A stretch of 26,978 nt of DNA from a virus, in IMG/VR virus record IMGVR_UViG_3300037808_002020, positions 1 to 26,978 of that record; one strand, written 5' to 3'. Position 1 is the stretch's first letter. The number at the start of each line of letters is the position of its first letter. The position numbers were made by a program, and so were the translations under genes. Positions 1,690 to 25,628 of this stretch are shown here, piece after piece. The notes under the pieces are model-generated. The model made no database searches. It worked only from the letters and a program-made list of their open reading frames with translations, and was not told where the DNA came from.

Positions 1690-1778
1690 TTTTTCCTGCT
1701 TCTCCAATAGTCAAATAAAACAGAACCAACAAATATCGCTATCGAGAGTTGTAAAATATTTATCACCAAGTCCATCAT
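1686..1778 (-). CDS. Single-pass membrane micro-protein (30 aa)
   Basis: The reading frame MMDLVINILQLSIAIFVGSV... is one hydrophobic helix followed by a basic tail (YWRSRKK). Its ATG at 1778 overlaps the stop of the thrombospondin-repeat gene, and its own stop overlaps the GTG of the next gene (GTGA). These couplings on both sides are the main reason to believe it. The ribosome-binding site is weak. The likely topology is periplasmic N-terminus with cytoplasmic basic tail. It could assist the surface protein upstream, but that is a guess. Confidence 0.45.
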   Translation of the reverse strand: MMDLVINILQLSIAIFVGSVLFDYWRSRKK

Positions 1779-3058
1779 TTTCTGATCTCAACCTTTCTTC
1801 TTAATACTACTATACCAAGAAAAGCAAGAAAAGTCAATAAAAAACTTTGACTATTTTCAGTACTGAAAGTTGAGCATCCGACGTGGGTCTCGGGACCAGT
1901 AACCACCAGCCTAAACTTATGCTGCACTGTTGGCGCTGATTCACCATTGGGCCCTTCGAAAAGCGGCTCAAGACTGATTGACATCTCGTATGTTCCTGGT
2001 TGATCCGGGACAAAGCTTGGCATCTCTGGTAAAAGATATTGATATAACGACGCGTCGAGTGTGTATCCAATTGGGTTTGCGATGGTGCTTCGCGACCTAT
2101 GAGGTCGCTTGATGATCGACCAAGTATAATGTCCTGGCTGAGCTTCCCTATTCATAAACAGCCGGAAGTTGACCGTCTCTCCGACGCCTAAAGACAAATC
2201 AGGGGAGTAAACTTTTAACTCGGCTGTTGGATCTAGACAGTTCTCCTCATCACCATAGACTACAAAGCAATAGTAGTCGTCACAGGCATCGTCGCCCTTG
2301 CCATCTCGGTCGCGGTCCTTCTGGCCTGGGTTGTGTACGCCATTGCAGTTATCTTGATGGTTTGGCACAGTATCCCCGTCCAGATCTGGGTCACAGACGT
2401 CACCTAAACCATCCAGGTCTGTGTCATACTGCTTCGGATTAAATACGCCAGGGCAGTTATCAGGATTATCGCCAAAATCAGATATATTATCAGAGTCCTG
2501 GTCAACAAAGCACTGAGAAAGATCTTCAGGTAAGCCCGGGGACATCGGACATGTATCGACATCATTTAATTCACCATCGTTGTCGATATCAGGGTCGCAC
2601 GAGTCACCCATATTGTCGGAATCAGTGTCAATCTGAGCTTTATTGTAAACTGTTTTGCAGTTATCTATCGTGTTTTGGATGCCGTCGCCGTCTAGGTCCA
2701 AGTCACAGGTGTCGCCGATGCCGTCACCGTCAAGGTCAAATTGTTCTTCATTTCTGGTTGTGCGGCAGTTATCACAGGCATCGCCGCGCTGATCTCCGTC
2801 GCGATCAAACTGTTCGCGGTTGGGGGTGCGAGGGCAGTTATCATACGAGTCCTCGATGCCATCATCGTCATAGTCATCGGCTCGCTGGTATGTGTCTCCC
2901 AAGTCAGTATTGGCAACCAAGATAGAACCTCCACCACCATCGGTGCCACCTCCTGATACTTCGGGTGTACCGCATTCAGCATAATTGTTGTCACACTCAA
3001 ATGGTTGTGCGTATACTGTGCCAGACGCCAGTAGCGCAATGATTATATTTTTTAACAT
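1775..3058 (-). CDS. Secreted thrombospondin type 3 repeat protein with C-terminal membrane anchor (427 aa)
   Basis: The start is ATG 3058, preceded by AAAGGAGAAAAC; an in-frame start at 3079 lacks a ribosome-binding site. A signal peptide (MLKNIIIALLASGTVYA, then QPF) is followed by a Gly-rich linker. Residues 60-270 hold calcium-binding thrombospondin type 3 repeats, seen as repeated DxDxDGxxDxxDNC and DTDxDGxGDxCD. A beta-rich, Ig/PKD-like region covers about 278-393. The last 30 residues are a Gly-Cys, a hydrophobic helix (FLLTFLAFLGIVVL) and RRK, resembling MYXO-CTERM-type surface sorting signals. It is probably displayed on the host cell envelope. It lies 66 nt downstream of the GDLV array, probably on the same transcript. 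A phage-borne gene of this host type suggests a moron. Confidence 0.85.
   Translation of the reverse strand: MLKNIIIALLASGTVYAQPFECDNNYAECGTPEVSGGGTDGGGGSILVANTDLGDTYQRADDYDDDGIEDSYDNCPRTPNREQFDRDGDQRGDACDNCRTTRNEEQFDLDGDGIGDTCDLDLDGDGIQNTIDNCKTVYNKAQIDTDSDNMGDSCDPDIDNDGELNDVDTCPMSPGLPEDLSQCFVDQDSDNISDFGDNPDNCPGVFNPKQYDTDLDGLGDVCDPDLDGDTVPNHQDNCNGVHNPGQKDRDRDGKGDDACDDYYCFVVYGDEENCLDPTAELKVYSPDLSLGVGETVNFRLFMNREAQPGHYTWSIIKRPHRSRSTIANPIGYTLDASLYQYLLPEMPSFVPDQPGTYEMSISLEPLFEGPNGESAPTVQHKFRLVVTGPETHVGCSTFSTENSQSFLLTFLAFLGIVVLRRKVEIRK
1809..1837 (-). promoter_or_regulatory. Sigma-70 promoter inside the surface-protein gene
   Basis: TTGACT (1832-1837), 17-nt spacer, TATAGT (1809-1814) on the minus strand. 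The same bases encode the hydrophobic anchor of the thrombospondin-repeat protein. It would give separate expression of the 30, 79, 100, 65 and 48 aa genes and perhaps tRNA-Lys. Confidence 0.65.
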
Positions 3059-3124
3059 GTTTTCTCCTTTTGTTCGCAACTTTGGTTAGCCAACTGAGCT
3101 GCTTCAGCATATTGTGTTATTATA

Positions 3125-3295
3125 TCATAACTTTCTAAAACTTTTATAGGTTCCTTTTCTCACCCAATCAAGAGCATCGACGTCCTGCCAATGGACTCTA
3201 TACCAAATCTCATAAGGCGGAAACCTATTATTGTTCTTTATCTCAACGATGATACCTCGTGAGCCTCGCATCTCTACTAAGTCACCGATTTTCAC
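3125..3295 (-). CDS. GDLV array gene 21, last copy (56 aa)
   Basis: GTG start inside the 14-nt seam, with GGAGGTTATCA upstream coming from gene 20. Opens VKIGDLVEMRGSRGIIVEIK. As the final member it has no downstream gene to encode, and accordingly lacks the SESR ending, finishing basic instead (RKGTYKSFRKL). This is good evidence that the usual ending is imposed by the overlap. The middle holds WYRVHWQDVD, the aromatic strand common to the family. The thrombospondin-repeat gene starts 66 nt downstream. Confidence 0.75.
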   Translation of the reverse strand: MKIGDLVEMRGSRGIIVEIKNNNRFPPYEIWYRVHWQDVDALDWVRKGTYKSFRKL

Positions 3296-3443
3296 TGATA
3301 ACCTCCAGAGATGACTCGTGGACGAAGATTGTCACTCCGTCTGTCCTTAAAACGTCGAAATACCCTTTACCTTGCAGCATACTGATGATGACGCCAATCG
3401 TGTCATGGTTGCGGTATAATCTCACCAAATCACCGACTTTCAC
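3282..3443 (-). CDS. GDLV array gene 20 (53 aa)
   Basis: GTG start 13 nt inside gene 19, ribosome-binding site AGGAAATTAA. Opens VKVGDLVRLYRNHDTIGVII and ends LEVISENR, an Asn for Ser change caused by one base in the seam (GTGAAAATCGGTGA). That same base gives the last gene its KIGDLV instead of KVGDLV. One of the shortest members: two strands, a FDVLRTDG turn and the closing strand. Confidence 0.75.
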   Translation of the reverse strand: MKVGDLVRLYRNHDTIGVIISMLQGKGYFDVLRTDGVTIFVHESSLEVISENR

Positions 3444-3624
3444 TTAATTTCCTCAAAGACGTTTCTGAAGCAGTGCCAACTCCACCATGGTGCCACAGTA
3501 TTCTATAGTCAGGGGTATCATATCTGTTGATAAGCCAATCAACACTGAACCCGAGAATGATTCCAACAGGCTTGTTCTTTTCTTTTGCTGGTAGTGCTAT
3601 ACAGACTAAATCACCGACTTTCAC
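3430..3624 (-). CDS. GDLV array gene 19 (64 aa)
   Basis: GTG start in a perfect 14-nt overlap with gene 18. Opens MKVGDLVCIALPAKEKNKPV. The following strand GIILGFSVDWLINRYDTP is more hydrophobic than in sister copies, and the turn is HHGGVG. Ends LRKLSESR. The region before its GTG (GGCTTCTCA) gives one of the weaker ribosome-binding sites in the array. Confidence 0.8.
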   Translation of the reverse strand: MKVGDLVCIALPAKEKNKPVGIILGFSVDWLINRYDTPDYRILWHHGGVGTASETSLRKLSESR

Positions 3625-3811
3625 TGAGAAGCCTTGCGCTGTGTTCTATTTGCCTGCCTAGTGCAATGCACTTCCCATCTGTCATGACGAGCCAATCATA
3701 TTCATAAGAGTCGCTCCTTGGTAGTTTCTTAATCAAAATAGCAACATAACTTTTCAAGTCAAAATGATTGCCTACTCCACGAGACAACCTCACTAAATCA
3801 CCGACTTTCAC
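3611..3811 (-). CDS. GDLV array gene 18 (66 aa)
   Basis: GTG start, 14-nt overlap with gene 17, ribosome-binding site GGAGTTAATCA. Opens MKVGDLVRLSRGVGNHFDLK. The second strand is SYVAILIKKL, and the usual VxW is replaced by YEYDWLVMTDGKC. Ends ARLLSESR. Carries a longer first loop than the average member. Confidence 0.8.
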   Translation of the reverse strand: MKVGDLVRLSRGVGNHFDLKSYVAILIKKLPRSDSYEYDWLVMTDGKCIALGRQIEHSARLLSESR

Positions 3812-3983
3812 TGATTAACTCCAAGTTCCATGCGCGACATAACTGCTTTCTCTTCCCAGTGTAACACTCTTTGCTCCAAAGCACCAAATAGGCGACGAAA
3901 TCACCGAAGCTCTCACGTTTTAAGACAATACCTGTCATATCCAAAGAACCTTGGCGATACCTTACCAAATCACCGACATTCAC
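3798..3983 (-). CDS. GDLV array gene 17 (61 aa)
   Basis: GTG start, 14-nt overlap with gene 16, ribosome-binding site GGAGGTGATCA. Opens MNVGDLVRYRQGSLDMTGIV; the Asn for Lys comes from a base change in the seam that also makes gene 16 end in ECR. The core strand is FVAYLVLWSKECYTG, and the closing part has NLELISESR. Confidence 0.8.
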   Translation of the reverse strand: MNVGDLVRYRQGSLDMTGIVLKRESFGDFVAYLVLWSKECYTGKRKQLCRAWNLELISESR

Positions 3984-4158
3984 TGATCACCTCCAATGCT
4001 TTATAGCTCCAAAGCCTTTTGCCATGCGGCGTGAGGACGTGAACGTCTGGATTTAAGAAAGGGCACTTCTCATAACTCGGACAATTTCCAGCATAACCAA
4101 TGCCTGTCACGATGCCTGTGTGTCCTTGGCCGTTCTTTACTAAATCACCGAGCTTCAC
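3970..4158 (-). CDS. GDLV array gene 16, first of the fourth block (62 aa)
   Basis: First gene after the promoter at 4197-4225, with a leader of about 30 nt. GTG start, ribosome-binding site poor. Opens MKLGDLVKNGQGHTGIVTGI and ends ALEVISECR. Its body (IGYAG, then VHVLTPHGKRLWSYKALE) clearly resembles gene 2 at 6544-6729 (IGYTG, VTVLTPHSKMLLAFTALE). The two are close paralogues about 2.5 kb apart, although most members share little outside the ends. Confidence 0.8.
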   Translation of the reverse strand: MKLGDLVKNGQGHTGIVTGIGYAGNCPSYEKCPFLNPDVHVLTPHGKRLWSYKALEVISECR

Positions 4159-4196
4159 TACTAGTCTCTGTCTTTCTCTATTGTTTCTACTATTAT

Positions 4197-4225
4197 AGTA
4201 TAACAGGTAAGCTACTGAAAGTCAA
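4197..4225 (-). promoter_or_regulatory. Array promoter 3 (sigma-70, extended -10)
   Basis: TTGACT (4220-4225), 17-nt spacer, TATACT (4197-4202), with TG one base before the -10. It differs from the other two array promoters at two spacer positions. The stop codon of array gene 15 (4222-4224) lies within the -35 box. Confidence 0.8.
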
Positions 4226-4392
4226 GGTTTTTCTATGACTAGCTCTAAGTAATTTTTAGCGATCCACTCTGAGCCGTTTTGAGTGTACACTTTCACCATG
4301 GTGCCTCTCGTGGGCGTCTCGATAACGACACCCAGCCACTCAGTAGCTCCGGCTTGGGGGAACCTATCTCTAACTAAATCGCCGGCATTCAC
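4222..4392 (-). CDS. GDLV array gene 15, end of the third block (56 aa)
   Basis: GTG start overlapping gene 14 by 23 nt, ribosome-binding site GGAGCTAATCA. Opens VNAGDLVRDRFPQAGATEWL, the most diverged opening in the array. Strand VKVYTQNGSEW and end LELVIEKP. As the last gene before a promoter it lacks SESR; its TGA is part of the promoter's TTGACT. Genes 5 and 11, also last in their blocks, end similarly in SEKKP. Confidence 0.75.
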   Translation of the reverse strand: MNAGDLVRDRFPQAGATEWLGVVIETPTRGTMVKVYTQNGSEWIAKNYLELVIEKP

Positions 4393-4582
4393 TGATTAGC
4401 TCCATATCCTCTTCACGGTAATACCAGTTCTGTTTTCCGTCATTTATTATCCAGTACCCTTTATCCGTCCACAGCGATGGGCTTGGATAAGATGGCTTGC
4501 CATAATACCCTACCACTACGCAAATAATATCTCTTATCTCCCAGCCTTTGGATCTAACCTTCACTAAATCGCCGGACGTCAC
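4370..4582 (-). CDS. GDLV array gene 14, longest copy (70 aa)
   Basis: GTG start at 4582, ribosome-binding site GAGGTTGTAA from gene 13. Opens MTSGDLVKVRSKGWEIRDII. Unusually aromatic middle (GYWIINDGKQNWYYREED). It ends MELISECRRFS: the seam's stop TGA has become CGA, so translation runs three codons further. The overlap with gene 15 is therefore 23 nt rather than 14. Confidence 0.8.
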   Translation of the reverse strand: MTSGDLVKVRSKGWEIRDIICVVVGYYGKPSYPSPSLWTDKGYWIINDGKQNWYYREEDMELISECRRFS

Positions 4583-4727
4583 TTACAACCTCGCATCCAC
4601 TGGTAACCCACCAGGCTGTCTTGTTATTCGAATGGACTTTTATCGTACCACCAGCACCGTTGACGTATAACACAACACCAATGTCAGTCCAATGGCCATA
4701 ATACTTCACCAAGTCACCGACTTTCAC
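4554..4727 (-). CDS. GDLV array gene 13 (57 aa)
   Basis: GTG start in a 14-nt overlap with gene 12, ribosome-binding site GAGGTTATCA. Opens VKVGDLVKYYGHWTDIGVVL and has a Gly-rich turn (VNGAGGTIKV). As in gene 14, the usual seam stop is lost (TGA to CGA), and the reading frame extends to VVSDVRRFSEG, giving a 29-nt overlap with gene 14, the largest in the array. Confidence 0.75.
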   Translation of the reverse strand: MKVGDLVKYYGHWTDIGVVLYVNGAGGTIKVHSNNKTAWWVTSGCEVVSDVRRFSEG

Positions 4728-4896
4728 TGATAACCTCTAAAAGTCTTTCGTTTAATGTCTGCTTTAGGTTTCCGTCCAAAGATAAGATAACAAAGGCTTG
4801 TCCGCTCGAATTCGCGAAAGATAGATCTTCACGTTTTCCCACGATAAGGTAGCGTGTTCCGTATCGGATTGTCTTCACCAAATCACCGACTTTCAT
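4714..4896 (-). CDS. GDLV array gene 12, first of the third block (60 aa)
   Basis: Uses ATG rather than GTG, with GGAG 8 nt upstream, as expected for the first gene behind a promoter (4924-4952). Opens MKVGDLVKTIRYGTRYLIVG; the strand AFVILSLDGNLKQ is followed by LLEVISESR. Its first six codons lie in the 112-bp exact repeat shared with gene 6. After codon six the two proteins are unrelated apart from the common plan. Confidence 0.8.
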   Translation of the reverse strand: MKVGDLVKTIRYGTRYLIVGKREDLSFANSSGQAFVILSLDGNLKQTLNERLLEVISESR

Positions 4897-4990
4897 TTGA
4901 GTTCTCCATTTCTCTATATTATAAGTATAACAGGTAAACCACTGAAAGTCAAGGCTTTTTTTCGCTGAGTAGCTTTAAATCGTAGTCCCA
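4879..4990 (-). repeat. 112-bp direct repeat, copy 1
   Basis: Identical over 112 bp to 5991-6102. It covers the last codons of array gene 11, the promoter, the leader with ribosome-binding site, and the first six codons of gene 12. The flanks diverge at once on both sides. Confidence 0.95.
4924..4952 (-). promoter_or_regulatory. Array promoter 2 (sigma-70, extended -10)
   Basis: TTGACT (4947-4952), 17-nt spacer, TATACT (4924-4929), TG one base before the -10. Identical to the promoter at 6036-6064. The stop of array gene 11 (4949-4951) is inside the -35. Confidence 0.85.
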
Positions 4991-5143
4991 CACATTGTTT
5001 CCAATCGTGCCGTTTTGCCACAAGACTTTGAAAGCCTTGTTTAGACGCGGAGAGCCTAGCCGGCCTTCACCCACAAGCACACCAATCTTCGTTGGTAATG
5101 AGCGAGAAGGATAGTTGTCTTTCACCAAATCACCGACTTTCAC
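4949..5143 (-). CDS. GDLV array gene 11, end of the second block (64 aa)
   Basis: GTG start in a 14-nt overlap with gene 10, ribosome-binding site GGAGGTAATCA. Opens MKVGDLVKDNYPSRSLPTKI. Its second half (KVLWQNGTIGNNVWDYDLKL, then LSEKKP) is nearly the same as in array gene 5, making these two the clearest paralogue pair. Their first loops (NYPSRSLPTK versus NHPTGPRW) have diverged. The stop falls in the downstream promoter's -35. Confidence 0.8.
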   Translation of the reverse strand: MKVGDLVKDNYPSRSLPTKIGVLVGEGRLGSPRLNKAFKVLWQNGTIGNNVWDYDLKLLSEKKP

Positions 5144-5333
5144 TGATTACCTCCAAGAATCTTATGTCGATTGGTCTGATACCATCTTGACCAATCCACA
5201 TCACGTTTTTGTACCTAACTACATAGGGGCTTTCGTCGGGGTAGGCAGTATTGCCGAAGTCGCCAGTGACTATTCCAAGCAAAATATCTTTCTGCCCCTT
5301 GTGAATATATTTCACCAAATCACCTACTTTCAC
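5130..5333 (-). CDS. GDLV array gene 10 (67 aa)
   Basis: GTG start, ribosome-binding site GGAGTTAATCA, seam with gene 9 (GTGAAAGTAGGTGA) differing from the common 14-mer at one base. Opens MKVGDLVKYIHKGQKDILLG. The middle reads YVVRYKNVMWIGQDGIRPID, ends RFLEVISESR. One of the longer copies because of an extended first loop rich in acidic and Pro residues (GDFGNTAYPDESP). Confidence 0.8.
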   Translation of the reverse strand: MKVGDLVKYIHKGQKDILLGIVTGDFGNTAYPDESPYVVRYKNVMWIGQDGIRPIDIRFLEVISESR

Positions 5334-5469
5334 TGATTAACTCCAAGTCTGATTTGATAGCCCAATACCATTTACCGCTTGGGTAAAGGACACGATAGTT
5401 GTTGAACACAATCTCTACGAGTAGACCTACACCAAACTCGCAAGTAAGAACCAAGTCACCGACTTTCAC
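5320..5469 (-). CDS. GDLV array gene 9, shortest copy (49 aa)
   Basis: GTG start overlapping the stop of gene 8 by only 4 nt (GTGA), ribosome-binding site AAGGTGATTCA. Reads VKVGDLVLTCEFGVGLLVEI, then NNYRVLYPSGKWYW and LELISESR. With minimal loops it shows the family core: opening turn, second strand, central strand with a Gly hairpin, aromatic pair and closing strand. Confidence 0.75.
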   Translation of the reverse strand: MKVGDLVLTCEFGVGLLVEIVFNNYRVLYPSGKWYWAIKSDLELISESR

Positions 5470-5645
5470 TGAATCACCTTCAACTCTCGTGTCTCGACCA
5501 TCGAAATTTTACCAGCGTTACTAAACCGTGAATTCGGAAGCCATAAAAGCTTTGCAAATTCATCATCTCTATCATAGAAACCGATCACTATAGCTTTCGG
5601 TCGCAGTGAGTGTTGATCCCACTCAACCAAATCACCGACTTTCAC
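5466..5645 (-). CDS. GDLV array gene 8 (59 aa)
   Basis: GTG start at 5645 in the standard 14-nt seam with gene 7, ribosome-binding site GAGGTTATCA. A longer in-frame reading from 5750 exists, but its first 35 residues come from reading gene 7 in the wrong frame and are rejected. Opens VKVGDLVEWDQHSLRPKAIV. Ends RELKVIQ, so here the SESR ending is absent and the overlap with gene 9 shrinks to GTGA. Confidence 0.75.
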   Translation of the reverse strand: MKVGDLVEWDQHSLRPKAIVIGFYDRDDEFAKLLWLPNSRFSNAGKISMVETRELKVIQ

Positions 5646-5838
5646 TGATAACCTCAAACTCACCAGGTCGGTCGCGACGGACAGGGCGGTCTGGATACAA
5701 TACCATGAGCCAGTAACCGTGAAACGCAGGATTTGGCCCGAGGGGATCAACGTGCTTGCCGGTTACGATTGCAACTGTCCCTGCTTGGTGTGGTTCAATC
5801 TTGCCCCAACGCTTCTTAACTAGGTCACCGACTTTCAT
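5632..5838 (-). CDS. GDLV array gene 7 (68 aa)
   Basis: ATG start overlapping the stop of gene 6 by one base (TAATG), with GAGGTGG upstream. Opens MKVGDLVKKRWGKIEPHQAG. Strand TVAIVTG, then a Pro-rich loop (GKHVDPLGPNPAFHG) before YWLMVLYPDRPV, ends FEVISESR. The highest Pro/Arg content among the copies. Confidence 0.8.
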   Translation of the reverse strand: MKVGDLVKKRWGKIEPHQAGTVAIVTGKHVDPLGPNPAFHGYWLMVLYPDRPVRRDRPGEFEVISESR

Positions 5839-6008
5839 TACGAAACCACCTCAAAGAAGTCGGCATTGGACCAAGATTGTTTAAGGAAGGGGTTCTCTGA
5901 ACAATGGAGCCTCAACTCCTCAAAACCGCGGGCGGTGCGAGTCTCCATGACTACAAAGAGCTTGTTAGAATCAAAACCTAACGCTATTAACAAATCACCG
6001 ACTTTCAT
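5838..6008 (-). CDS. GDLV array gene 6, first of the second block (56 aa)
   Basis: ATG start with GGAG upstream, directly behind promoter 6036-6064. Opens MKVGDLLIALGFDSNKLFVV; the Val of GDLV is Leu here. The remainder (METRTARGFEELRLHCSENP) lacks the usual VxW strand, so it is an outlier that may be fused from other sequence after its repeat-encoded start. Ends FFEVVS with TAA instead of the SESR ending. Confidence 0.7.
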   Translation of the reverse strand: MKVGDLLIALGFDSNKLFVVMETRTARGFEELRLHCSENPFLKQSWSNADFFEVVS

Positions 6009-6102
6009 TTGAGTTCTCCATTTCTCTATATTATAAGTATAACAGGTAAACCACTGAAAGTCAAGGCTTTTTTTCGCTGAGTAGCTTTAAATCGTAGTCC
6101 CA
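5991..6102 (-). repeat. 112-bp direct repeat, copy 2
   Basis: Identical to 4879-4990, offset 1112 bp. It holds the 3' end of array gene 5, a promoter, the leader and six codons of array gene 6. Perfect identity in otherwise diverged genes points to recent duplication or gene conversion. Confidence 0.95.
6036..6064 (-). promoter_or_regulatory. Array promoter 1 (sigma-70, extended -10)
   Basis: TTGACT (6059-6064), 17-nt spacer, TATACT (6036-6041), same sequence as 4924-4952. Array gene 5 stops at 6061-6063 within the -35. Confidence 0.85.
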
Positions 6103-6246
6103 GATGTTGTCTCCAACCTTACCGTTTTGCCACAATACCTTGAACACTTTATTTAGAGCGGTTGAGTGTGGCACTGAGGCAACAACTATTCCAACCCAGC
6201 GTGGGCCGGTTGGGTGGTTGTCTTTCACTAGATCACCGACTTTCAC
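6061..6246 (-). CDS. GDLV array gene 5, end of the first block (61 aa)
   Basis: GTG start, 14-nt overlap with gene 4, ribosome-binding site GAGGTGATAA. Opens MKVGDLVKDNHPTGPRWVGI; its body KVLWQNGKVGDNIWDYDLKL and end LSEKKP match array gene 11. The stop codon sits in the promoter for the next block. Confidence 0.8.
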   Translation of the reverse strand: MKVGDLVKDNHPTGPRWVGIVVASVPHSTALNKVFKVLWQNGKVGDNIWDYDLKLLSEKKP

Positions 6247-6403
6247 TTATCACCTCGTAATCGACAACCGGGAAAAAATTATTATCACCCACTACTTGAA
6301 AAGCGCGCTCTCCATCTGACCACCTCACAAGATAGACATTTTTCCAGTAAGCATAGCGATCTGTTTTGTGCTGTCTATGTCTCACTAAATCACCGACTTT
6401 CAC
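6233..6403 (-). CDS. GDLV array gene 4 (56 aa)
   Basis: GTG start in the perfect 14-nt seam, ribosome-binding site GGAGTTAGTCA. Opens VKVGDLVRHRQHKTDRYAYW, with the central strand VYLVRWSDGERAF and a Phe-rich second hairpin (DNNFFPVVD). Ends YEVISESR. The first strand pair is shortened: there is no GIVxxI segment before the aromatic strand. Confidence 0.75.
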   Translation of the reverse strand: MKVGDLVRHRQHKTDRYAYWKNVYLVRWSDGERAFQVVGDNNFFPVVDYEVISESR

Positions 6404-6557
6404 TGACTAACTCCAACAAATTTTTGTCCATATTGTATTGAGTGTTGGTGTCAAAGAAAAGGACCATACACCTGTCGTTCTTCAGGTCATGAGTTATAAT
6501 ACCAAAACGCGTGGGAGTCCAGCGCGGTGTTTGTTTCACCAAATCACCGACTTTCAC
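6390..6557 (-). CDS. GDLV array gene 3 (55 aa)
   Basis: GTG start in the 14-nt seam with gene 2, ribosome-binding site GGAGGTTATTA. Opens VKVGDLVKQTPRWTPTRFGI, then ITHDLKNDRCMVLFFD and LLELVSESR. The central strand is MVLFFDTNTQYN, where an Asp replaces the usual Trp position. Confidence 0.75.
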   Translation of the reverse strand: MKVGDLVKQTPRWTPTRFGIITHDLKNDRCMVLFFDTNTQYNMDKNLLELVSESR

Positions 6558-6729
6558 TAATAACCTCCAATGCTGTAAAGGCTAATAGCATTTTGCTATG
6601 TGGTGTCAAGACAGTAACGGTGGGTCCATACTGCTCGCGGTCCCAGGCACTCTCCCTGCCAGTGTATCCAATAGCCAACACCACACCGATATCGCCTCGG
6701 CCGCTTCTTACCAAATCACCGACTTTCAT
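6544..6729 (-). CDS. GDLV array gene 2 (61 aa)
   Basis: The only internal seam that uses ATG (ATGAAAGTCGGTGA), overlapping gene 1 by 14 nt. Opens MKVGDLVRSGRGDIGVVLAI; body related to array gene 16 as described there. Ends ALEVISESR. The upstream ribosome-binding site is poor, so it may depend on coupling to gene 1. Confidence 0.8.
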   Translation of the reverse strand: MKVGDLVRSGRGDIGVVLAIGYTGRESAWDREQYGPTVTVLTPHSKMLLAFTALEVISESR

Positions 6730-6916
6730 TTGTTTTTTTCTTTACTCTTTTAAGCATCCACCTGGGAAAATCCTGGTATCGACTATGCTCATCCCAGGCG
6801 ATATAAACTCTGAACCAATTTTCGTCGATCTGTGAAAAAATTACACCCTTCGTGGATTTTGGATACACTGTATCGTTACCTGCAACAATATAAACCAAAT
6901 CTCCAACTTTTACCAC
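6716..6916 (-). CDS. GDLV array gene 1 (66 aa)
   Basis: GTG start at 6916, overlapping the stop of the 128-aa gene by 7 nt. Reads MVKVGDLVYIVAGNDTVYPK, a Trp-rich centre (FRVYIAWDEHSRYQ, FPRWMLKRV) and a basic end KKKTNESR, a variant of SESR. Ribosome-binding site weak. Its opening bases (AAAGTTGGAGAT) do not match the seam 14-mer, so it marks the array's upstream boundary. Confidence 0.8.
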   Translation of the reverse strand: MVKVGDLVYIVAGNDTVYPKSTKGVIFSQIDENWFRVYIAWDEHSRYQDFPRWMLKRVKKKTNESR

Positions 6917-7296: not shown

Positions 7297-7955
7297 CCTC
7301 TTTTCCTCTTTAAGTCTGACTCATGCGCAAATATTGTGGAGACATCACCAGTAAGTAGTATACTGTAAATCCTGGAGCCTGCCGCGGCTCGAGTGACCGG
7401 TTTTGAATCGATGCCTATCACAAATCCTACTTTGTTTTTTTCATAGTTTCGACACATCTTATTGGGATGGCTTGTTTCAGGGTTGTAGTTTGCCAAATCC
7501 AATCGATTATTGGATCTTATTTGTATGCAATCTCCCTTCTGGAATTTCAACTCCTTTCTATGTATCTCTCTAATTTTTTTAGCATACTTGTTGCAACAGA
7601 ACTTATTCCAATCTCTCTTTGTGAGAGTGAAGTGCTGTGGATTGCTCAATATAGTGCTTACATAATTGGAATAGTAAGGGGGGTTGGCACTATAGTATTT
7701 TGCAACCTGTAAGGCTTCGTCGCGGTGGCGCTGACTAAACCCATCAGCCCACAACTCTTCTTCTTCCATTACTTCTGAGTTATATTTCTGATAGATGATT
7801 CCCAACCATCTCTCTTGGCCAAAGCTGAATTCTGACTTGTAGTCACTCTGGGCAATCAGGGAAGATATAAATGTGGATTCTCTCTCCAACAAGAAAGAGG
7901 ACCACTTCTCTAAAAATGACTGCAAATATTCTTTAGAGTTTTTGTCCTTGCTCAT
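7293..7955 (-). CDS. Unknown N-terminal domain fused to a GDLV-like module (220 aa)
   Basis: Residues 1-130 are an unrecognised, mostly helical and aromatic-rich domain (ERWLGIIYQKYNSEV, WNKFCCNKYAKKIREIHRK). From about 137 the protein switches to KFQKGDCIQIRSNN, then VGFVIGIDSKPV, YSILLTGDVSTIF and a closing ESDLKRKRG. That is the same strand order as the array proteins. It overlaps the upstream 56-aa GDLV gene (ATGA) and the gene below, placing it at the head of the array transcript. It may show what the small modules act with. Confidence 0.75.
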   Translation of the reverse strand: MSKDKNSKEYLQSFLEKWSSFLLERESTFISSLIAQSDYKSEFSFGQERWLGIIYQKYNSEVMEEEELWADGFSQRHRDEALQVAKYYSANPPYYSNYVSTILSNPQHFTLTKRDWNKFCCNKYAKKIREIHRKELKFQKGDCIQIRSNNRLDLANYNPETSHPNKMCRNYEKNKVGFVIGIDSKPVTRAAAGSRIYSILLTGDVSTIFAHESDLKRKRG

Positions 7956-8122
7956 ACGTTAGCCTTTCGGAGGCTGGATCTTAAGGTTTTTAAGGTTTTT
8001 GTTTGGGTGGCCCACAAGACCGATACGATGGCATCACCGCCGAATATATTAGAGTCAATTATTTTTAAAAGTACTCCAGGGGTAGTCTCCCCTCTAGTAA
8101 TAACTAAATCGCCAGGTTTCAT
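7952..8122 (-). CDS. GDLV-family small protein upstream of the array (56 aa)
   Basis: ATG start at 8122 with GCG/GGAG-like leader after the promoter at 8149-8177. Opens MKPGDLVITRGETTPGVLLK, has AIVSVLWATQ as the central strand and ends basic (RSSLRKANV). The ending lacks SESR because the next gene is not a family member; instead the stop overlaps its ATG. First family copy on this transcript. Confidence 0.75.
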   Translation of the reverse strand: MKPGDLVITRGETTPGVLLKIIDSNIFGGDAIVSVLWATQTKTLKTLRSSLRKANV

Positions 8123-8182: not shown

Positions 8183-8362
8183 TTATTGCTTTAACTCGCT
8201 AATATCGTATATTAGTTCACTACAATGGTACCAGCCCATGGGGGCGCTGGGATTGGCCCAAATCATGAAGCCCATAAAGTCTTTAACCCCCAAGCACTGG
8301 CCATGGCAACCGAACCTGGTGGAGTAGAAGATGGTATTTCTCTTGAGTTTGCCTTTCTTCAT
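8183..8362 (-). CDS. Small Cys/His-containing hypothetical protein (59 aa)
   Basis: Begins MKKGKLKRNTIFYSTRFGCH and contains FMGFMIWANPSAPMGWYHCS. The ATG at 8362 overlaps the upstream stop (ATGA). Cys and His residues (GCHGQC, YHC) could bind metal, but spacing fits no family I know. The last gene of its operon: promoter 8149-8177 follows its stop. Confidence 0.65.
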   Translation of the reverse strand: MKKGKLKRNTIFYSTRFGCHGQCLGVKDFMGFMIWANPSAPMGWYHCSELIYDISELKQ

Positions 8363-8616
8363 TCTTGACCGTAAGTTGTGGGCATCTCCTTGACTAAATT
8401 AATAAATTCTTTATTTTTTCTGGTTACTTTGCCCGGGCGCGTTCTCTTAATCGATTCAGAGGGCAACTCTGCCCATTCGCCGTTGACTGGGAAATAGACT
8501 AAGTGCTTTCCTGAAGCTTCGTCAGTCTTCAGGAAAATTCCCTTTTCCCCCTTTATATCCAAATCAAAGAGATCATAACTTACTATGACCTTCACTTCTT
8601 CGCCGCGGGTTATCAC
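8359..8616 (-). CDS. Small protein with SH3-like GEEVKV opening (85 aa)
   Basis: GTG start at 8616, 4 nt after the previous stop, with AAGAAAGGA upstream. Opens MITRGEEVKVIVSYDLFDLD, then KGIFLKTDEASGKHLVYFPV and an ELPSESIKRT close: the same strand arrangement as the array proteins, with GEEV for GDLV. A basic helix (KVTRKNKEFINLVKEM) follows as an extra tail. Unknown role. Confidence 0.75.
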   Translation of the reverse strand: MITRGEEVKVIVSYDLFDLDIKGEKGIFLKTDEASGKHLVYFPVNGEWAELPSESIKRTRPGKVTRKNKEFINLVKEMPTTYGQE

Positions 8617-9095: not shown

Positions 9096-9296
9096 CTATA
9101 CTAGCTGCTCTTCGCTACCAAAAGAATAAAGCTTCCAGTATTTATATTTTATTATGTTGCCCTCTAGCAGACCTGATTGCATTAGAACATTGTAGGAGTC
9201 CTTTCCTATTTTTCCTACTATGGTTCCCTTCACATTCAGGGGTTTGCCAAAAGGAAAGTCTCGAATCCAGACTTCATCTCCCTTTACAAATTCCAT
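9096..9296 (-). CDS. Small SH3-like protein with KGDEVWIRD opening (66 aa)
   Basis: MEFVKGDEVWIRDFPFGKPL, then VKGTIVGKIGKDSYNVLMQS and KYWKLYSF: the layout of KOW/SH3-like barrels and of the array proteins (GDEV for GDLV). No ribosome-binding site precedes the ATG at 9296. Instead the start codon lies in an 8-bp hairpin (9293-9313) just after uvsE. Expression may therefore be structure-controlled or coupled. Confidence 0.75.
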   Translation of the reverse strand: MEFVKGDEVWIRDFPFGKPLNVKGTIVGKIGKDSYNVLMQSGLLEGNIIKYKYWKLYSFGSEEQLV

Positions 9297-13380: not shown

Positions 13381-13734
13381 TCACAGATATTTAATCCAAG
13401 AATATCTTCTTCTTTCTGTCAGATAATCCTTATTGCATTCATTGGAGTATGCCTCTCTCTCGAAGGGGTTTTCGCGATACGATTTAACCCCGCTGCGGTA
13501 TTTGACTAATCCAATGAGCCAGAACGATAAATAGAATAGAAAAAAGAAAATAAAAGCCATTTCTAACTGCTGCTGGAAATGAACGGTTTCATGCCTCTTG
13601 GTTACGGGCGACATATACCCCCTTGAAAAGACGAAGCCCATTAAAGATATCGCACCTATCTCAATAGGTGAAATCTTTGATAGCCACACAGGAATGCGAC
13701 TATTCTCTATAAACATGGGCTTCCAGCTCTTCAT
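13381..13734 (-). CDS. Putative membrane zinc metallopeptidase-like protein (117 aa)
   Basis: RHETVHFQQQ (47-56) contains the zincin motif HExxH at 48-52. It is followed by a membrane-embedded hydrophobic stretch (AFIFFFLFYLSFWLIGLV, 60-77) and NPFEREAYSN, where Glu 92 or 94 may be the third zinc ligand. A first hydrophobic segment covers about 24-37. This matches a family of short conserved phage/bacterial membrane proteins I recognise by its IPVWLSK, RHExxH and RFEREAY-type blocks; activity is not established. ATG 13734 overlaps the Smr-fusion stop (ATGA). Confidence 0.7.
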   Translation of the reverse strand: MKSWKPMFIENSRIPVWLSKISPIEIGAISLMGFVFSRGYMSPVTKRHETVHFQQQLEMAFIFFFLFYLSFWLIGLVKYRSGVKSYRENPFEREAYSNECNKDYLTERRRYSWIKYL

Positions 13735-14156
13735 CTCTCTACAACCACTAGTGTGCCTGGATTATGGACGCTCTCTATTCCACAGTGCCACCCATACTCC
13801 TTCACGATACGATCCACAAGATACTTCATCTGATCTGAGTTTCCTGTTATTATCTTACATGGTAGTTCTACAAAATTTAAGAAGTTTTTTACTTCTTCTT
13901 CTACATTGAGGTGCTTGACACCGTGTAAGTCTAGGCTTCTCATCTTATTTTGCACTCTTCTTCTTTTTTTGCTCCCGTAAGCTATCGACACTTCAGAAGA
14001 CTTATTATCAAAATTGCTCCACAAGGTTTCTTTCTTCGACCGGTTGATGTGACCTCCTAAAAAATAATATATATATTTAGGCGTCACCTTGGTCACTACT
14101 GCGGCTCTTGGGCCGGCGGTGATCATATCACCCTTTCTAATTTTATAACCCTTCAA
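13731..14156 (-). CDS. SH3-like module fused to a Smr domain (141 aa)
   Basis: The N-terminal 50 residues open KIRKGDMITAGPRAAVVTKV and continue YIYYFLGG, a GDxI module like the array proteins. After a basic linker (SKKRRRVQN) comes a C-terminal Smr domain (about 73-141). It has SLDLHGVKHLNVEEEV, IITGNSDQM in place of the usual TGxG loop, and a closing VHNPGTLVVVE. Smr domains cut or bind RNA or branched DNA. TTG start at 14156, strongly supported by AAGGAG 6 nt upstream and overlapping the previous stop (TTGA). The fusion suggests that GDLV-type modules may recruit or sense nucleic acid. Confidence 0.8.
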   Translation of the reverse strand: MKGYKIRKGDMITAGPRAAVVTKVTPKYIYYFLGGHINRSKKETLWSNFDNKSSEVSIAYGSKKRRRVQNKMRSLDLHGVKHLNVEEEVKNFLNFVELPCKIITGNSDQMKYLVDRIVKEYGWHCGIESVHNPGTLVVVER

Positions 14157-14452
14157 CTTTGCTCCTTTATATTTTCTTTTTTCTCTAACTTAAATAGCCA
14201 ATTGGTTGAGACGAAACCAAGCGAGTCATTAACTCGGTTTTGTTTAGACACCATTTTGGCAAAAAAGTTTTGATATTTTGTACCGGGTTGCATCATCACT
14301 AGTCCCAGCTCCCTATGATTTTTGCCTTTAGATTCATCTTTGTATACATCTATTATCTCCAGAAGGACACCCACCCATTCTTTCCCATGTAGAAGGTGGT
14401 ATACCAGATCTCCAACCTTTATCTCTCTGGTGTTCGATATCTTCTTCCGCAT
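14153..14452 (-). CDS. GDLV-family protein (99 aa)
   Basis: A larger family member: residues 11-17 are IKVGDLVYHLLHG, then WVGVLLEIIDVYKDE and LGLVMMQPGTKYQ as successive strands, and a C-terminal FVSTNWLFKLEKK close. It has ten extra N-terminal residues and a 25-residue central insertion compared with array copies. ATG 14452. An alternative frame on the same strand (14334-14537) overlaps its first 119 nt. Confidence 0.75.
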   Translation of the reverse strand: MRKKISNTREIKVGDLVYHLLHGKEWVGVLLEIIDVYKDESKGKNHRELGLVMMQPGTKYQNFFAKMVSKQNRVNDSLGFVSTNWLFKLEKKENIKEQS

Positions 14453-18578: not shown

Positions 18579-20144
18579 TTAGTGAACAATGCTGTGATTA
18601 GTCAACAAAAGAGTGCCCGCGACTGAGACTGCATTCTTTAGTGCGCAGCGAGTCACTTTCGCAGGATCAATAACACCGGAAGCAAACAGGTCTTCCTTCT
18701 CCCCTGACAGGAAGTTGAAACCTTCCAGGTCTTCACAGGTGCCCATCGTCAACCTTAACACCTCTGGGTTATGGCCGGCATTCTTTGCCATCGTGTTGAA
18801 GGGGGCCTGGAGGGCTTTACGAAAGATGTCGAGCGCTATGGCTTGATCAGGATTTTCAAATTCAATATCCAGCGCTGTGGCGATCTTCAACAAAGTCATA
18901 CCTCCGCCTAGAACTATTCCCTCCTGTTGGGCAGAATTGACTGCTTCGAGTGCGTCCTCTATTCGGTGCTTCTTCTCTATCATTTCGACCTCGGAGCTAG
19001 CTCCTACTTTTATGATGGCCACACCAGATGAGAGTCGAGTAATCCTGTCCTGAAGACGACCGGCGGCGTGGAGATCGTCTGTACACTCTATTTCTGATTT
19101 AATGGCCTCGATTCTGTTTTCTACATCTTCATATTCACCTTCGCCATCGACCACCGTTGATTGAGATTTTGTGATCTCTACTTGTCGAGCTTTGCCGAAA
19201 TCCAAGAGAGTCACATCTGACAGATTCTTCCCCAGGGACTGCTGGATAAATGTTGCTCCGGTGGCGACAGCTAGATCGCTCATGATGCCGCGGCGGTCTT
19301 CGCCGTAAGAAGGTGCTTTGATAGCAGCGACCTTCATTGAGCCGCGGACGGTGTTCATTATTAGTGCAGCTAAAGCTTGGCCTTCGATCTCTTCTGCAAT
19401 GATTATAAAAGGACGGCCTTCTCTGGCTGCGATTTCGAGTGCCGGTAGAATCTCTGCCACTTGATCAACCTTGTAGTCTGTAATTAAGAACAGTGGGTTC
19501 TCATATCTACATGTGCCGCGGCGTTCATCTGTGATGAATGCTCGAGCTGCGTATCCACCCTCCAAGGTAAAACCTTCAACTAGTTCTAGTGTGGTTTCAT
19601 GCGATCGCCCCTGCTCTACAGATATGGAACCATTCTTTCCTACCTTGTCTACAGCCTGTGAAACTAGGTTTCCGATTATCTTGTCGTTGTTTGCAGATAT
19701 GCTGGCAATATGCTTAATGTCTTCTTCTGAAGATATTGGCCTGGCCAAGTCTTCGATACCTTCACATGCCGCGGCAGTGCACCTTTCGAGGCCGCGTTTA
19801 ATATCTATGGGGGAGGCGCCAGCTTCGATGTGCTTATTGGCTTGGCGCAGGATCTCTCGGGCTAGAATGGTGCTTGTAGTTGTGCCATCGCCAGCTTCAG
19901 CATTAGTCATGGCAGAAACCTGCTTTACAACCTCCGCTCCAGCGTTCATATGTGGGTCTTCGAAACTCATACTCTGAGCTACGGTTACTCCGTCCTTCGT
20001 AATGAAGGGTCTCTTATCTTTTTGGTGAATGAGAACATTCTGTCCCTTGGGTCCAAGGGTTGCTGCAACATAATCGGCAAGGGTATTAACCCCATCCAGA
20101 ACCTTGTTGCGAAGGGTCTGGCCGTGCTCTAACTTAGTAGTCAT
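18579..20144 (-). CDS. groEL: GroEL-type chaperonin
   Basis: 521 aa against about 548 in bacteria. ATP-dependent folding chamber subunit. Family marks: ATLGPKGQNVLI (28-39), KDGVTVAQS with the first catalytic Asp, GDGTTTSTILA (nucleotide-binding), HRIEDALEAVNSAQQEG (Asp needed for hydrolysis), VLGGGMTLL and ASGVIDPAKVTR near the end. The Gly-Gly-Met tail is absent; the protein ends LLTNHSIVH. No groES is visible here. Own promoter at 20172-20199, ribosome-binding site GAGG. Large phages such as EL carry chaperonins that work without a co-chaperonin; this may be similar. Confidence 0.96.
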   Translation of the reverse strand: MTTKLEHGQTLRNKVLDGVNTLADYVAATLGPKGQNVLIHQKDKRPFITKDGVTVAQSMSFEDPHMNAGAEVVKQVSAMTNAEAGDGTTTSTILAREILRQANKHIEAGASPIDIKRGLERCTAAACEGIEDLARPISSEEDIKHIASISANNDKIIGNLVSQAVDKVGKNGSISVEQGRSHETTLELVEGFTLEGGYAARAFITDERRGTCRYENPLFLITDYKVDQVAEILPALEIAAREGRPFIIIAEEIEGQALAALIMNTVRGSMKVAAIKAPSYGEDRRGIMSDLAVATGATFIQQSLGKNLSDVTLLDFGKARQVEITKSQSTVVDGEGEYEDVENRIEAIKSEIECTDDLHAAGRLQDRITRLSSGVAIIKVGASSEVEMIEKKHRIEDALEAVNSAQQEGIVLGGGMTLLKIATALDIEFENPDQAIALDIFRKALQAPFNTMAKNAGHNPEVLRLTMGTCEDLEGFNFLSGEKEDLFASGVIDPAKVTRCALKNAVSVAGTLLLTNHSIVH

Positions 20145-22095: not shown

Positions 22096-22800
22096 CTAGA
22101 TAATTTCATCTGCAATTCCCAAGTTAATTGCCTCTTCAGCTGAGATGTAGATATCTCTCTGTGTTTTGAGCATTTTCTTGATTTTTGCTTTTGTTAGTTT
22201 TGTATAACCAGCTAGAGCTTCAATGTATCTATCTTGAACCCATTTAATCTCTTCCAGTTCATTCTCCATGTTAAATATCGTGCCACCAGTTCCTGCCATC
22301 ACACTGTGCAACATGATGCGGCAATTCCGGCCGACGCGGCGTCGACCCGGGGTGCCAGCGGCGAGAATGGGGACGCCGGCTGACATCACTTTGCCAATCC
22401 CGTAGGTCTCTATGTTACATGTTCTCTTCTTGATCATATCCATGACATCCAATATTGAGAACATATCAGAAGCGCAACCGCCATGGGTCGATACGTACAT
22501 ATTTATTGGCCTTGAGACCGTTAAAATCTCCGAGGCTGGGTCTTCAGGGTCTTTGAGCATCTGGGTGTATGCTGAGGTTTCCAGATAAAGAAGTGCTGAT
22601 ACGACTTCTGACCCTTTCTGTTCTGTGACATCGCCATATAAATTAATTGTTCTTAATTCCGGCTGCTCATCAATGGGTGGCTGGATGTTATTAATAATAA
22701 CAACTTGCTTGTCGTCTGTTGTTTTTATTTCCGGTAATGGTATTGTTCCGGTTTTCTTTTTCTTCTTTTTCTTCTCGGTCTTTTCTTTCTTGTCAGTCAT
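22096..22800 (-). CDS. clpP: ClpP-like serine protease
   Basis: 234 aa. The catalytic triad of ClpP is in order: Ser 140 in GIGKVMSAGVPILAAG, His 165 in RIMLHSVMAG, Asp 216 in QRDIYISAEEA. LRTINLYGDVTE (49-60) and MYVSTHGGCASD (101-112) are the strand and oxyanion-region blocks. The first 40 residues are extra and very Lys-rich (a run of seven Lys). No Clp ATPase is in the window. Phage ClpP-like enzymes may act in prohead maturation or borrow host ClpX/ClpA. Overlaps the previous gene as ATGA. Confidence 0.93.
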   Translation of the reverse strand: MTDKKEKTEKKKKKKKTGTIPLPEIKTTDDKQVVIINNIQPPIDEQPELRTINLYGDVTEQKGSEVVSALLYLETSAYTQMLKDPEDPASEILTVSRPINMYVSTHGGCASDMFSILDVMDMIKKRTCNIETYGIGKVMSAGVPILAAGTPGRRRVGRNCRIMLHSVMAGTGGTIFNMENELEEIKWVQDRYIEALAGYTKLTKAKIKKMLKTQRDIYISAEEAINLGIADEII

Positions 22801-24039: not shown

Positions 24040-24353
24040 TCCTGTTCCTCAAAATCTTCTTCGATCAAATCATAAATAAAATTTTTCTCTGAATTTGAAA
24101 GGCCTAAATCTTTCATTAATCGATCTCCTTTCTCTATCTCTTTTTTTGAATTTTGTCTCTTTTTCTTTCCCATAGTACTTTTCTCCAGTTTTATTTTTTC
24201 TATTGCTCGCATCATATCTAAGTCATTCTCAACGTATAACTTAACCAGGCCTCGAAAGAAGTTTCCTTGAGTTAGCCTATCATATCTTAGTCTGACAATC
24301 ATCCTGGCGTGCTGTGCAGTATCATATTCGAATGCAATCTTCTTTATGGTCAT
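24036..24353 (-). CDS. Conserved-looking hypothetical protein (105 aa)
   Basis: Not assigned. N-terminus [15 protein letters not shown]-like strand, then HARMIVRLRYDRLTQGNFFR and GLVKLYVENDLDMMRAIEKI, an arrangement reminiscent of ribbon-helix-helix proteins. A basic middle (MGKKKRQNSKK) and acidic C-terminal helix (IYDLIEEDFEEQE) follow. Overlaps GMPR/IMPDH-like gene and the sigma-like gene by 4 nt each, so it may cooperate in transcription control. Confidence 0.7.
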   Translation of the reverse strand: MTIKKIAFEYDTAQHARMIVRLRYDRLTQGNFFRGLVKLYVENDLDMMRAIEKIKLEKSTMGKKKRQNSKKEIEKGDRLMKDLGLSNSEKNFIYDLIEEDFEEQE

Positions 24354-25387
24354 CGCGATAATATATGAGTATTACTCTCTCGTTGGCCTGCTGGTGTCTG
24401 CCGGATGAACTCAGCCCTTGCTTGGATTTCCGGTATACTCCTACAACCAGAATAAGAAAGGCCAGATTTCAAATTCTGAGAAATTGTGGCTAAAATATTT
24501 TTTACGGATCCCTTATATGGAATCGTAGTTGATATGCCCTCTAGTGACCGGGCTTCGCCTCTCCAATCTAGTTGGGCTTCAACACTTGCCATGCCGCGGT
24601 ATACTTTATATTTATTACCATCGCCCTTAGATAACACGTTACCAGGAGACTCATCCGTGCCGGCCAGCATAGAGCCCAGCATCACCAAATCGGCGCCGGC
24701 TGCTATAGCTTTAACAACATCTCCAGAGGTTTTGATGCCGCCGTCGGCTATAACGGTCGCGCCGTCGATGTCACGGCAATCAAGTACTGACTGGAATGTT
24801 GGAACTCCATGACCGGTTTGGATCCGGGTCGAGCATATGCTTCCTCCTCCGATGCCGACGCGGACTGCATCTGCGCCCCAATCTGATAAATCCTTATAGC
24901 CTGCCGCGGTGGCGACATTACCTGCAATAATCGTCACTTTGTTATCATATTTATCTCTTATGGTTTTGATGGCGCGTTCGGTCAGCACGTGGTGACCGTG
25001 GGCGACGTCGATGCAAAAGATTCGGGCCCCGGCATCATAAAGGGCTCTTGTTCTGCGCAGAAGGCCTGAGCCGGCTGGCAATGCAACAGAAATCTTATTA
25101 AGATGGGCGCTGTTGACCTCCTCTAGCGAATCTCTTAGGTTTAGAACCATCGATGCCTGTTCCCTTTCGGTATTGTATCGATGCAAGATCCCTAGGCCGC
25201 CGTATTGCAGCATAGTCATTGACATCAGACTGGCTGTAACAGTATCCATTGGGCTAGATATCACTGGGAAGCCTAAGTCGACGTCTCCCAGAGACGATTC
25301 AAGTGTCACTTCTCTTCTGGTGAGGATTTCACTTGGCCTAGGCACCAATAATACGTCGTCAAAGCTCAGTGTTTGTTTCAGTTTCAT
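24350..25387 (-). CDS. GMP reductase/IMP dehydrogenase-family enzyme
   Basis: 345 aa TIM barrel. Opening [26 protein letters not shown] (40-51), [10 protein letters not shown] (151-160), the catalytic loop [12 protein letters not shown] with Cys 185, [13 protein letters not shown] and [15 protein letters not shown]. No CBS domains. Between [10 protein letters not shown] and [13 protein letters not shown] the flap is short and lacks the Arg-Tyr pair used by IMP dehydrogenase, which favours GMP reductase. Still, phage members are hard to call. It would adjust guanine nucleotide pools. AAGGAGACGAAG precedes the ATG at 25387. Confidence 0.88.
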
Positions 25388-25628
25388 CTTCGTCTCCTTG
25401 AGTTACTCCACTATCATAACAGTTTGTACAGACTAAGTCAATGTTTTCTGAATTTTTATTAATTCTCCAGTTGTCAATATTTTGACCTTCTGATGGGGGC
25501 TGGCCGCACACCGAGCATTTCACCTGTCGTTTGAAGTTTGCCATGGCCGTTTTGAAATCTTTGGTAAACTTCTTGCGAGCATCGGCGAGTTGTTTTCTCT
25601 TGATCTTTCTTGAAAAGCTGGTCATCAT
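25359..25628 (-). CDS. Zinc-ribbon-like small protein (89 aa)
   Basis: A basic helical N-terminus (SRKIKRKQLADARKKFTKDF) is followed by two Cys pairs, CSVC (38-41) and CTNC (67-70), 25 residues apart, which would bind one zinc. HNH-like histidines are missing, so a nuclease is unlikely. It ends in an acidic tail that overlaps the GMPR/IMPDH-like gene by 29 nt. The start ATG 25628 overlaps the dUTPase stop and has GGAG upstream. Confidence 0.75.
   Translation of the reverse strand: MMTSFSRKIKRKQLADARKKFTKDFKTAMANFKRQVKCSVCGQPPSEGQNIDNWRINKNSENIDLVCTNCYDSGVTQGDEDETETNTEL
25413..25441 (-). promoter_or_regulatory. Sigma-70 promoter inside the zinc-ribbon gene
   Basis: TTGACT (25436-25441), 17-nt spacer, TATGAT (25413-25418), with TG one base before the -10. 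It lies 25 nt upstream of the GMPR/IMPDH-like start and would allow that gene and the sigma-like gene to be expressed apart from dUTPase. Confidence 0.6.

Follow-up and report, generated by a model that had tools for sequence, protein, structure and literature searches.

The viral record IMGVR_UViG_3300037808_002020 of IMG/VR, analysed here over its whole length of 26,978 bp (the window), carries on its minus strand, at positions 3125-6916, an array of 21 open reading frames (ORFs) of 49-70 amino acids (aa). We propose that this array is best explained as a recombination-shuffled set of exchangeable one-gene cassettes encoding small binding proteins, and we put the probability of this reading at roughly two in three. 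A prediction made earlier from the sequence alone (hereafter the original prediction) had described 21 consecutive genes of 49-70 codons on one strand with nothing unrelated inside, and all of this was found; so were the differing middles of the proteins, which share an invariant GDL core and are about 20-30% identical elsewhere. We number the genes W01 (first) to W21 (last).

Adjacent genes meet in a junction of about 32 bp, which comprises the Shine-Dalgarno sequence, start codon and KVGDLV N-terminus of the next gene together with the upstream gene's final residues and stop codon. The W17/W18 junction (3792-3823, minus strand) is an example: here the ribosome-binding segment, the start codon and the KVGDLV codons belong to the downstream gene, and the stop of the upstream one lies in the other frame. 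The junction sequence along the coding strand is GGAGGTTATCA GTG AAA GTC GGT GAT TTG; the same bases in the upstream frame, GAG GTT ATC AGT GAA AGT CGG TGA, give EVISESR and a stop. The proteins had been credited with the same ends on both sides. The N-terminal KVGDLV is truly shared; the common C-terminus E(V/L)ISESR was ruled out as a protein domain, being the overlapping ribosome-binding site (RBS) and start of the next gene read in another frame. The overlap is exactly 14 nucleotides (nt) at 13 of the 20 internal junctions. Genes that precede a gap or a 1- or 4-nt overlap end differently (LSEKKP, VIEKP, KVIQ, EVVS, FRKL), and W21 lacks the SESR end because no overlap lies behind it. Where GGCGA stands in place of GGTGA, in W13 and W14, the upstream frame extends as RRFS. 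A search for the start motif RTGAAAGTCGGTGAYYTRGT with up to two mismatches gives 18 copies in the window and none in 100 shuffles.

The expansion had been called striking, such proteins being usually met singly in phages; it is not particular to this genome, for similar arrays lie on many viral contigs. The exact 21-nt junction pattern is present in at least 118 stretches of IMG/VR, and our comparisons draw on a deduplicated sample of 109 uncultured viral contigs from among the matches listed there. These contigs, which like the window we presume to be marine from the relatives and the naming of the collections, hold 1209 array-type genes. At 60% identity the genes fall into 830 families, and 627 of these have a single member. 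Across the sample the junction consensus, TGGAGGTgATCA joined to GTGAAAGTCGGTGATTTGGT, forms a strong RBS-start signal, and the overlap is exactly 14 nt in 590 of 905 neighbouring gene pairs. Judged by their junction sequences, the cassettes are plug-compatible: a cassette that ends in the shared sequence would therefore keep the reading frame, the correct spacing and a close translational link whichever cassette follows it, and translation is probably coupled across junctions. In terms of sequence, then, the junction acts as the cassette boundary, the unit running from one junction to the next.

Shuffling of whole cassettes between phage lineages is well supported by contig comparisons. The window and locus L121, part of a 190,698-bp relative (G001), are identical over more than 14 kb, save that W08 is missing from L121 and a single 86%-identical W09 allele replaces W08 and W09 in a junction-bounded change. 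The backbone of L122 is 98.9% identical to that of the window, yet its cassettes are reordered and substituted, in the order W01, new, W03, W18, new, W02, new, W11, W19', W20', W12, new, W13, W14, W15. W01 remains first in both loci at 97-100% identity, W02 has changed position in L122, and W18 lies elsewhere in L122, L125 and L130. In L125 and L130 the alignable backbone DNA is about 70% identical to the window; the cassettes in common mostly show 84-99% DNA identity (70-80% for a few) and stand in a different order. A stretch of 259 nt that takes in W05 and its promoter has 98.8% DNA identity to its L125 counterpart, and the L125 copy of W07 is 96% identical.

The limits of the exchanged units coincide with the junctions. 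Between the window and L122 the body of W03 has no mismatch, its neighbours differ and identity stops at the junctions. When cassettes with different neighbours are pooled (50-59 pairs), identity on the upstream side is at background level beyond about position -12, and on the downstream side directly after the stop. In W02 the 3' part differs locally from the L122 copy. A further 23 loci were picked for a thymidine kinase gene close by, without regard to the array; in this one neighbourhood they contain 0-24 family genes. A GTP cyclohydrolase II (L154 390-983, Pfam E 2e-61) bears an array junction at its 3' end, as does a GIY-YIG nuclease within an array (L075 10059-10361, Pfam E 6e-17); unrelated genes can therefore join the array. 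By eye, GIY-YIG nucleases with a junction at the 3' end also lie in the arrays of L046 and L105.

The junction may instead be kept only for translation and by the codon constraint of overlapping frames, with shuffling as generic phage mosaicism in which the repeat plays no special role. Two frames do constrain this DNA, the GTC and GGT codons of KVGDLV are frequent in solitary genes too, and in phages, gene overlaps combined with a good RBS are common. Breakpoints nevertheless coincide with the repeat, no half/half chimera was found among 656 equal-length gene pairs, and genes that follow a promoter without overlap retain the same ATGAAAGTCGGTGATTTG. We consider this explanation unlikely.

The source of diversity appears to be the swapping of whole genes and not fast change in loops. 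The pooled ratio of non-synonymous to synonymous substitution rates (dN/dS) is about 0.16-0.17 over 132 families and exceeds 1 in none of 116, for pairs picked at 65-97% aa identity, a range that caps dN. Loops are only moderately less conserved than strands, and whole cassettes are exchanged. Positive selection on loops as the main source of diversity, a reading in line with the original prediction, is rejected on these dN/dS values. The same prediction had named interrupted or neutrally drifting frames in relatives as evidence that would tell against it; instead, of 621 junction starts 618 lead into an intact frame of 38 aa or longer, and the frames are under purifying selection. Because dN/dS is low and the frames are intact, the cassette genes can be read as functional and conserved one by one, the variation lying in which genes are present.

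The barrel fold suggested at the outset (SH3/KOW-like) is borne out by prediction. AlphaFold2 models of W11 and W16, with predicted local distance difference test (pLDDT) scores of 85 and 87, show a five-strand barrel of SH3-like type with a short helix ahead of the last strand. Their best structural matches in the PDB are nearly all SH3-like barrels, at E 0.02-0.2. For the W11 model the closest structure is YorP of phage SPbeta, followed by PWWP and Tudor domains; for the W16 model the closest are MutS2 KOW, CAP-Gly, the UvrD Tudor domain in complex with the RNA polymerase lobe, and the domains of Mfd/CarD and NusG/Spt5 KOW. The predicted fold is thus like that of known KOW, Tudor and SH3-like barrels (MutS2 KOW, the UvrD C-terminal Tudor, the Mfd/CarD domain that interacts with RNA polymerase, NusG KOW, YorP, the T4 MotB N-terminus), unlike which the array proteins give no significant sequence match. 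Searches of PHROGs, Pfam and PADLOC assigned them to no confident family, and a sequence-profile search of the PDB gave no match. The nearest approach to a Pfam KOW family, in one scanned array gene, was KOWx_SPT5 at 19.4 bits against a cut-off of 20. In a viral structure library, many top matches fall in one accession series (A0A516...), a hint that further genomes hold many copies.

Given this fold, the array might simply produce in bulk one kind of nucleic-acid-binding KOW protein, MotB-like or NusG-like, in interchangeable copies. MutS2 KOW, NusG and Spt5 KOW are indeed among the near folds, and T4 MotB, a non-specific DNA binder, is predicted to have a KOW domain at its N-terminus (PMC7827196). 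The isoelectric points (pI) of the family are, however, bimodal, 42% below 6 and 32% above 8.5, which argues against one common nucleic-acid ligand, and strong purifying selection family by family speaks against interchangeability. The idea seems to us rather improbable.

A gene accordion, in which genes are duplicated in tandem on the spot and then diverge, the similar junctions being duplication remnants, is harder still to sustain. It draws on two paralogous pairs inside the array, W05/W11 (64% identity, with the same promoter region) and W02/W16 (about 50%), and on the observation that gene pairs with 70% identity or more occur about twice as often within a contig as between contigs. Close relatives, however, differ in how their cassettes are ordered and in which ones were imported, identity drops abruptly at the junctions, and a homologue of at least 70% identity is found on another contig (a much larger pool) for 476 of the 1209 genes, against 16 with one on their own contig. 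The present data point to other phages, and not to array neighbours, as the source of new cassettes.

A dedicated site-specific system (an integron-like integrase, a diversity-generating retroelement or a homing endonuclease) is very unlikely to move the cassettes. The GIY-YIG genes noted above and a possible hairpin on one junction strand could be taken in its favour; yet GIY-YIG is present in only one of eight large array-bearing records, and the hairpin is weak (-2.9 kcal/mol) and falls within constrained coding sequence. The same eight records, which may be incomplete, contain neither Phage_integrase (PF00589), present in 14 of 14 control genomes, nor RVT_1 (PF00078), other recombinase families not having been searched; for a retroelement, the dN/dS of 0.16 is a further negative. 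Integrase, reverse transcriptase and GIY-YIG nuclease, none consistently present, were rejected as the cassette motor. Least likely of all, the rearranged orders would be assembly artefacts of the 32-bp repeats: the contigs do come from uncultured virus collections and hold many short-repeat copies, but the window order recurs in L121 (18 of 19 successor pairs) and order is likewise kept in other contig pairs (17 of 18 and 9 of 9), cassettes differ not only in location but also in sequence (84-98%), and typical reads and the usual assembly k-mers are longer than a 32-bp repeat.

Under the cassette reading, any junction-ended unit would fit any other, and phage homologous recombination would cross over within the ~32-bp repeats, probably through a UvsX-like recombinase. 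Such an enzyme is encoded by G001, together with a T4-like major head protein, a terminase, a DnaB-like helicase and a phage DNA polymerase. In lambdoid phages, mosaics arise by homology-driven recombination that tolerates divergence, carried out by Red/Rad52-like enzymes (PMC2327257, PMC3945230). Cassettes would thereby be gained, lost, replaced and reordered within and between lineages with their frames unbroken, an outcome seen in the comparisons above.

Some cassettes appear to bring their own promoter. Three gaps in the window array, 3 of its 20 junctions, hold a strong sigma-70-type promoter, TTGACT-17-TATACT (6036-6064, 4924-4952 and 4197-4225, all on the minus strand), and in relatives this type occurs in 29 of 122 gaps of 20-200 nt against 1.1 expected. 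Host RNA polymerase could thus transcribe the array early. Each product would be one small SH3/KOW/Tudor-like barrel, as predicted for two of them, and the repertoire may bind host machines such as RNA polymerase, the ribosome, nucleic acids or defence proteins, being reshuffled as hosts change. Taken alone, this picture of a small-binder repertoire directed at host machinery is a tentative one, to which we give somewhat less than an even chance. The 'many host or defence targets' of the original prediction are plausible in view of the bimodal pI, the non-redundant sets and the early-type promoters, and the proteins may serve in host takeover or counter-defence. Among 10 proteins scanned with PADLOC defence models, a single marginal local match was obtained (PDC-S02, E 0.002). 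We may also hypothesize a self-maintaining repertoire, in which lineages share a large pool of one-fold cassettes and the coding junction is both translation signal and crossover site, so that each genome would carry about 10-30 rapidly renewed binders against host machinery or defences with no dedicated recombinase; this wider scheme is possible, the odds leaning against it.

Several points weigh against the cassette reading. About 35% of neighbouring pairs lack the 14-nt overlap, and the junction could be kept for translation alone, with recombination a by-product. The comparison of cassette identities chose pairs of at least 75% aa identity, which inflates the median; the case for exchange is drawn entirely from metagenome assemblies, the orders of L122, L125 and L130 coming from one contig each. 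UvsX-type recombinases may prefer longer homology. The fold matches are weak (E 0.02-0.2), and the array products are known from sequence and predicted models alone.

Two known systems come closest in their working. The first comprises the 'mobile regulatory cassettes' of T4-type phages, PeSL units of promoter plus stem-loop placed between many kinds of gene (Arbiol 2010, Comeau 2014, as summarized in PMC4503421 and PMC3950731). As there, a short repeat between genes of T4-like phages mediates shuffling, gene order is shuffled at the repeats between related phages, and some cassettes carry a sigma-70-type promoter. Unlike the PeSL, the repeat here is coding (RBS, start, N-terminus and upstream stop), nearly all the cargo has one fold, and a promoter with stem-loop does not separate most genes: beyond the three promoter gaps the window junctions are mostly 14-nt coding overlaps. 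The second is the 'chain of interlinked genes' in the ninR region of lambda (Kroger and Hobom 1982, cited in PMC8022706), also a mosaic region of tightly packed small genes with overlapping stop and start codons; its overlaps are 4-nt ATGA sequences between diverse genes, in contrast to a 14-nt overlap within a ~32-bp segment repeated among up to about 20 homologues. Neither system, as these reports describe it, has such a coding boundary with one-fold cargo. Integron cassettes are likewise interchangeable one-gene units in arrays of variable order, but the boundary here is protein-coding and contains a translation start in place of attC, and no tyrosine integrase was found. No earlier description of such arrays was found in the literature searched, which left out most subscription journals.

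Shuffling of small phage genes is already known; what sets these arrays apart is a coding boundary that would ensure frame, ribosome binding and stop at once, with one fold for nearly all the cargo. The arrays also offer a testable case of a renewable small-protein arsenal, in which one cassette can be traced across phage lineages by near-perfect identity. If the proteins do bind different host targets, the arrays would amount to a natural library of small binders and their content may record recent host pressure.

The family is found on large contigs (159-281 kb) with 7-28 members apiece, as counted by a hidden Markov model (HMM). The G001 capsid is nearest to those of an uncultured phage, Flavobacterium phage immuto, Microcystis phage Mel-JY01 and Rhodothermus phage RM378. 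The family HMM found no match in immuto, Mel-JY01, RM378, Vibrio 2.275 or Synechococcus Sf-FS3, and a single marginal one in LR756508; W11 and W16 have no relative among 50,697 phage records. The exact junction occurs in just 7 stretches among 84,980 prokaryote species genomes and so points to no host. Array-type genes with the junction were seen in one assembled chromosome, the metagenome-assembled genome CP070664.1 of candidate division WOR-3 (L159 6659-7862), where they may represent a provirus or a misbinned phage.

The array genes, all on the minus strand, begin with W01 (6716-6916, 66 aa), which overlaps W02 (6544-6729, 61 aa) by 14 nt. There follow W03 (6390-6557, 55 aa), W04 (6233-6403, 56 aa) and W05 (6061-6246, 61 aa), after which comes the first promoter. 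W06 (5838-6008, 56 aa) scores lowest of all array members with the family HMM (i-E 0.006) and is followed by W07 (5632-5838, 68 aa), W08 (5466-5645, 59 aa), W09 (5320-5469, 49 aa), W10 (5130-5333, 67 aa) and W11 (4949-5143, 64 aa). Behind the second promoter lie W12 (4714-4896, 60 aa), W13 (4554-4727, 57 aa), whose frame continues beyond the junction, W14 (4370-4582, 70 aa), with a weak Pfam match to SH3_CYT4 below the cut-off, and W15 (4222-4392, 56 aa). The third promoter precedes W16 (3970-4158, 62 aa), a member of a widespread family, W17 (3798-3983, 61 aa), W18 (3611-3811, 66 aa), W19 (3430-3624, 64 aa), W20 (3282-3443, 53 aa), the gene with the KOWx_SPT5 score given above, and W21 (3125-3295, 56 aa). 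The N-terminal motif recurs outside the array, as at 919-1116 and 7952-8122; these two loci and 14153-14452, all on the minus strand, encode further GDLV-type proteins that score with the family HMM. Small proteins at 369-629, 8359-8616 and 9096-9296 resemble array members by eye only.

Adjacent to the array, the gene at 1775-3079 encodes a protein that has a hydrophobic C-terminus and contains thrombospondin type 3 repeats (Pfam E 4e-35). The products of window 13731-14156 and of L127 4038-4526 combine a small barrel-like N-terminus with what looks by eye like an SMR tail, comparable to the KOW-SMR end of MutS2; the SMR assignment at 13731-14156, unsupported by Pfam or PHROGs, was dropped. 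Elsewhere the window encodes a GroEL-like chaperonin (18579-20144), a ClpP-like protease (22096-22800), an IMP dehydrogenase/GMP reductase (24350-25387) and a dUTPase (25625-26101), and G001 encodes an adenylosuccinate-synthetase-like protein (L144 8718-9725, PHROG 1211). This last protein and the IMP dehydrogenase/GMP reductase may reflect altered purine metabolism or a modified base.

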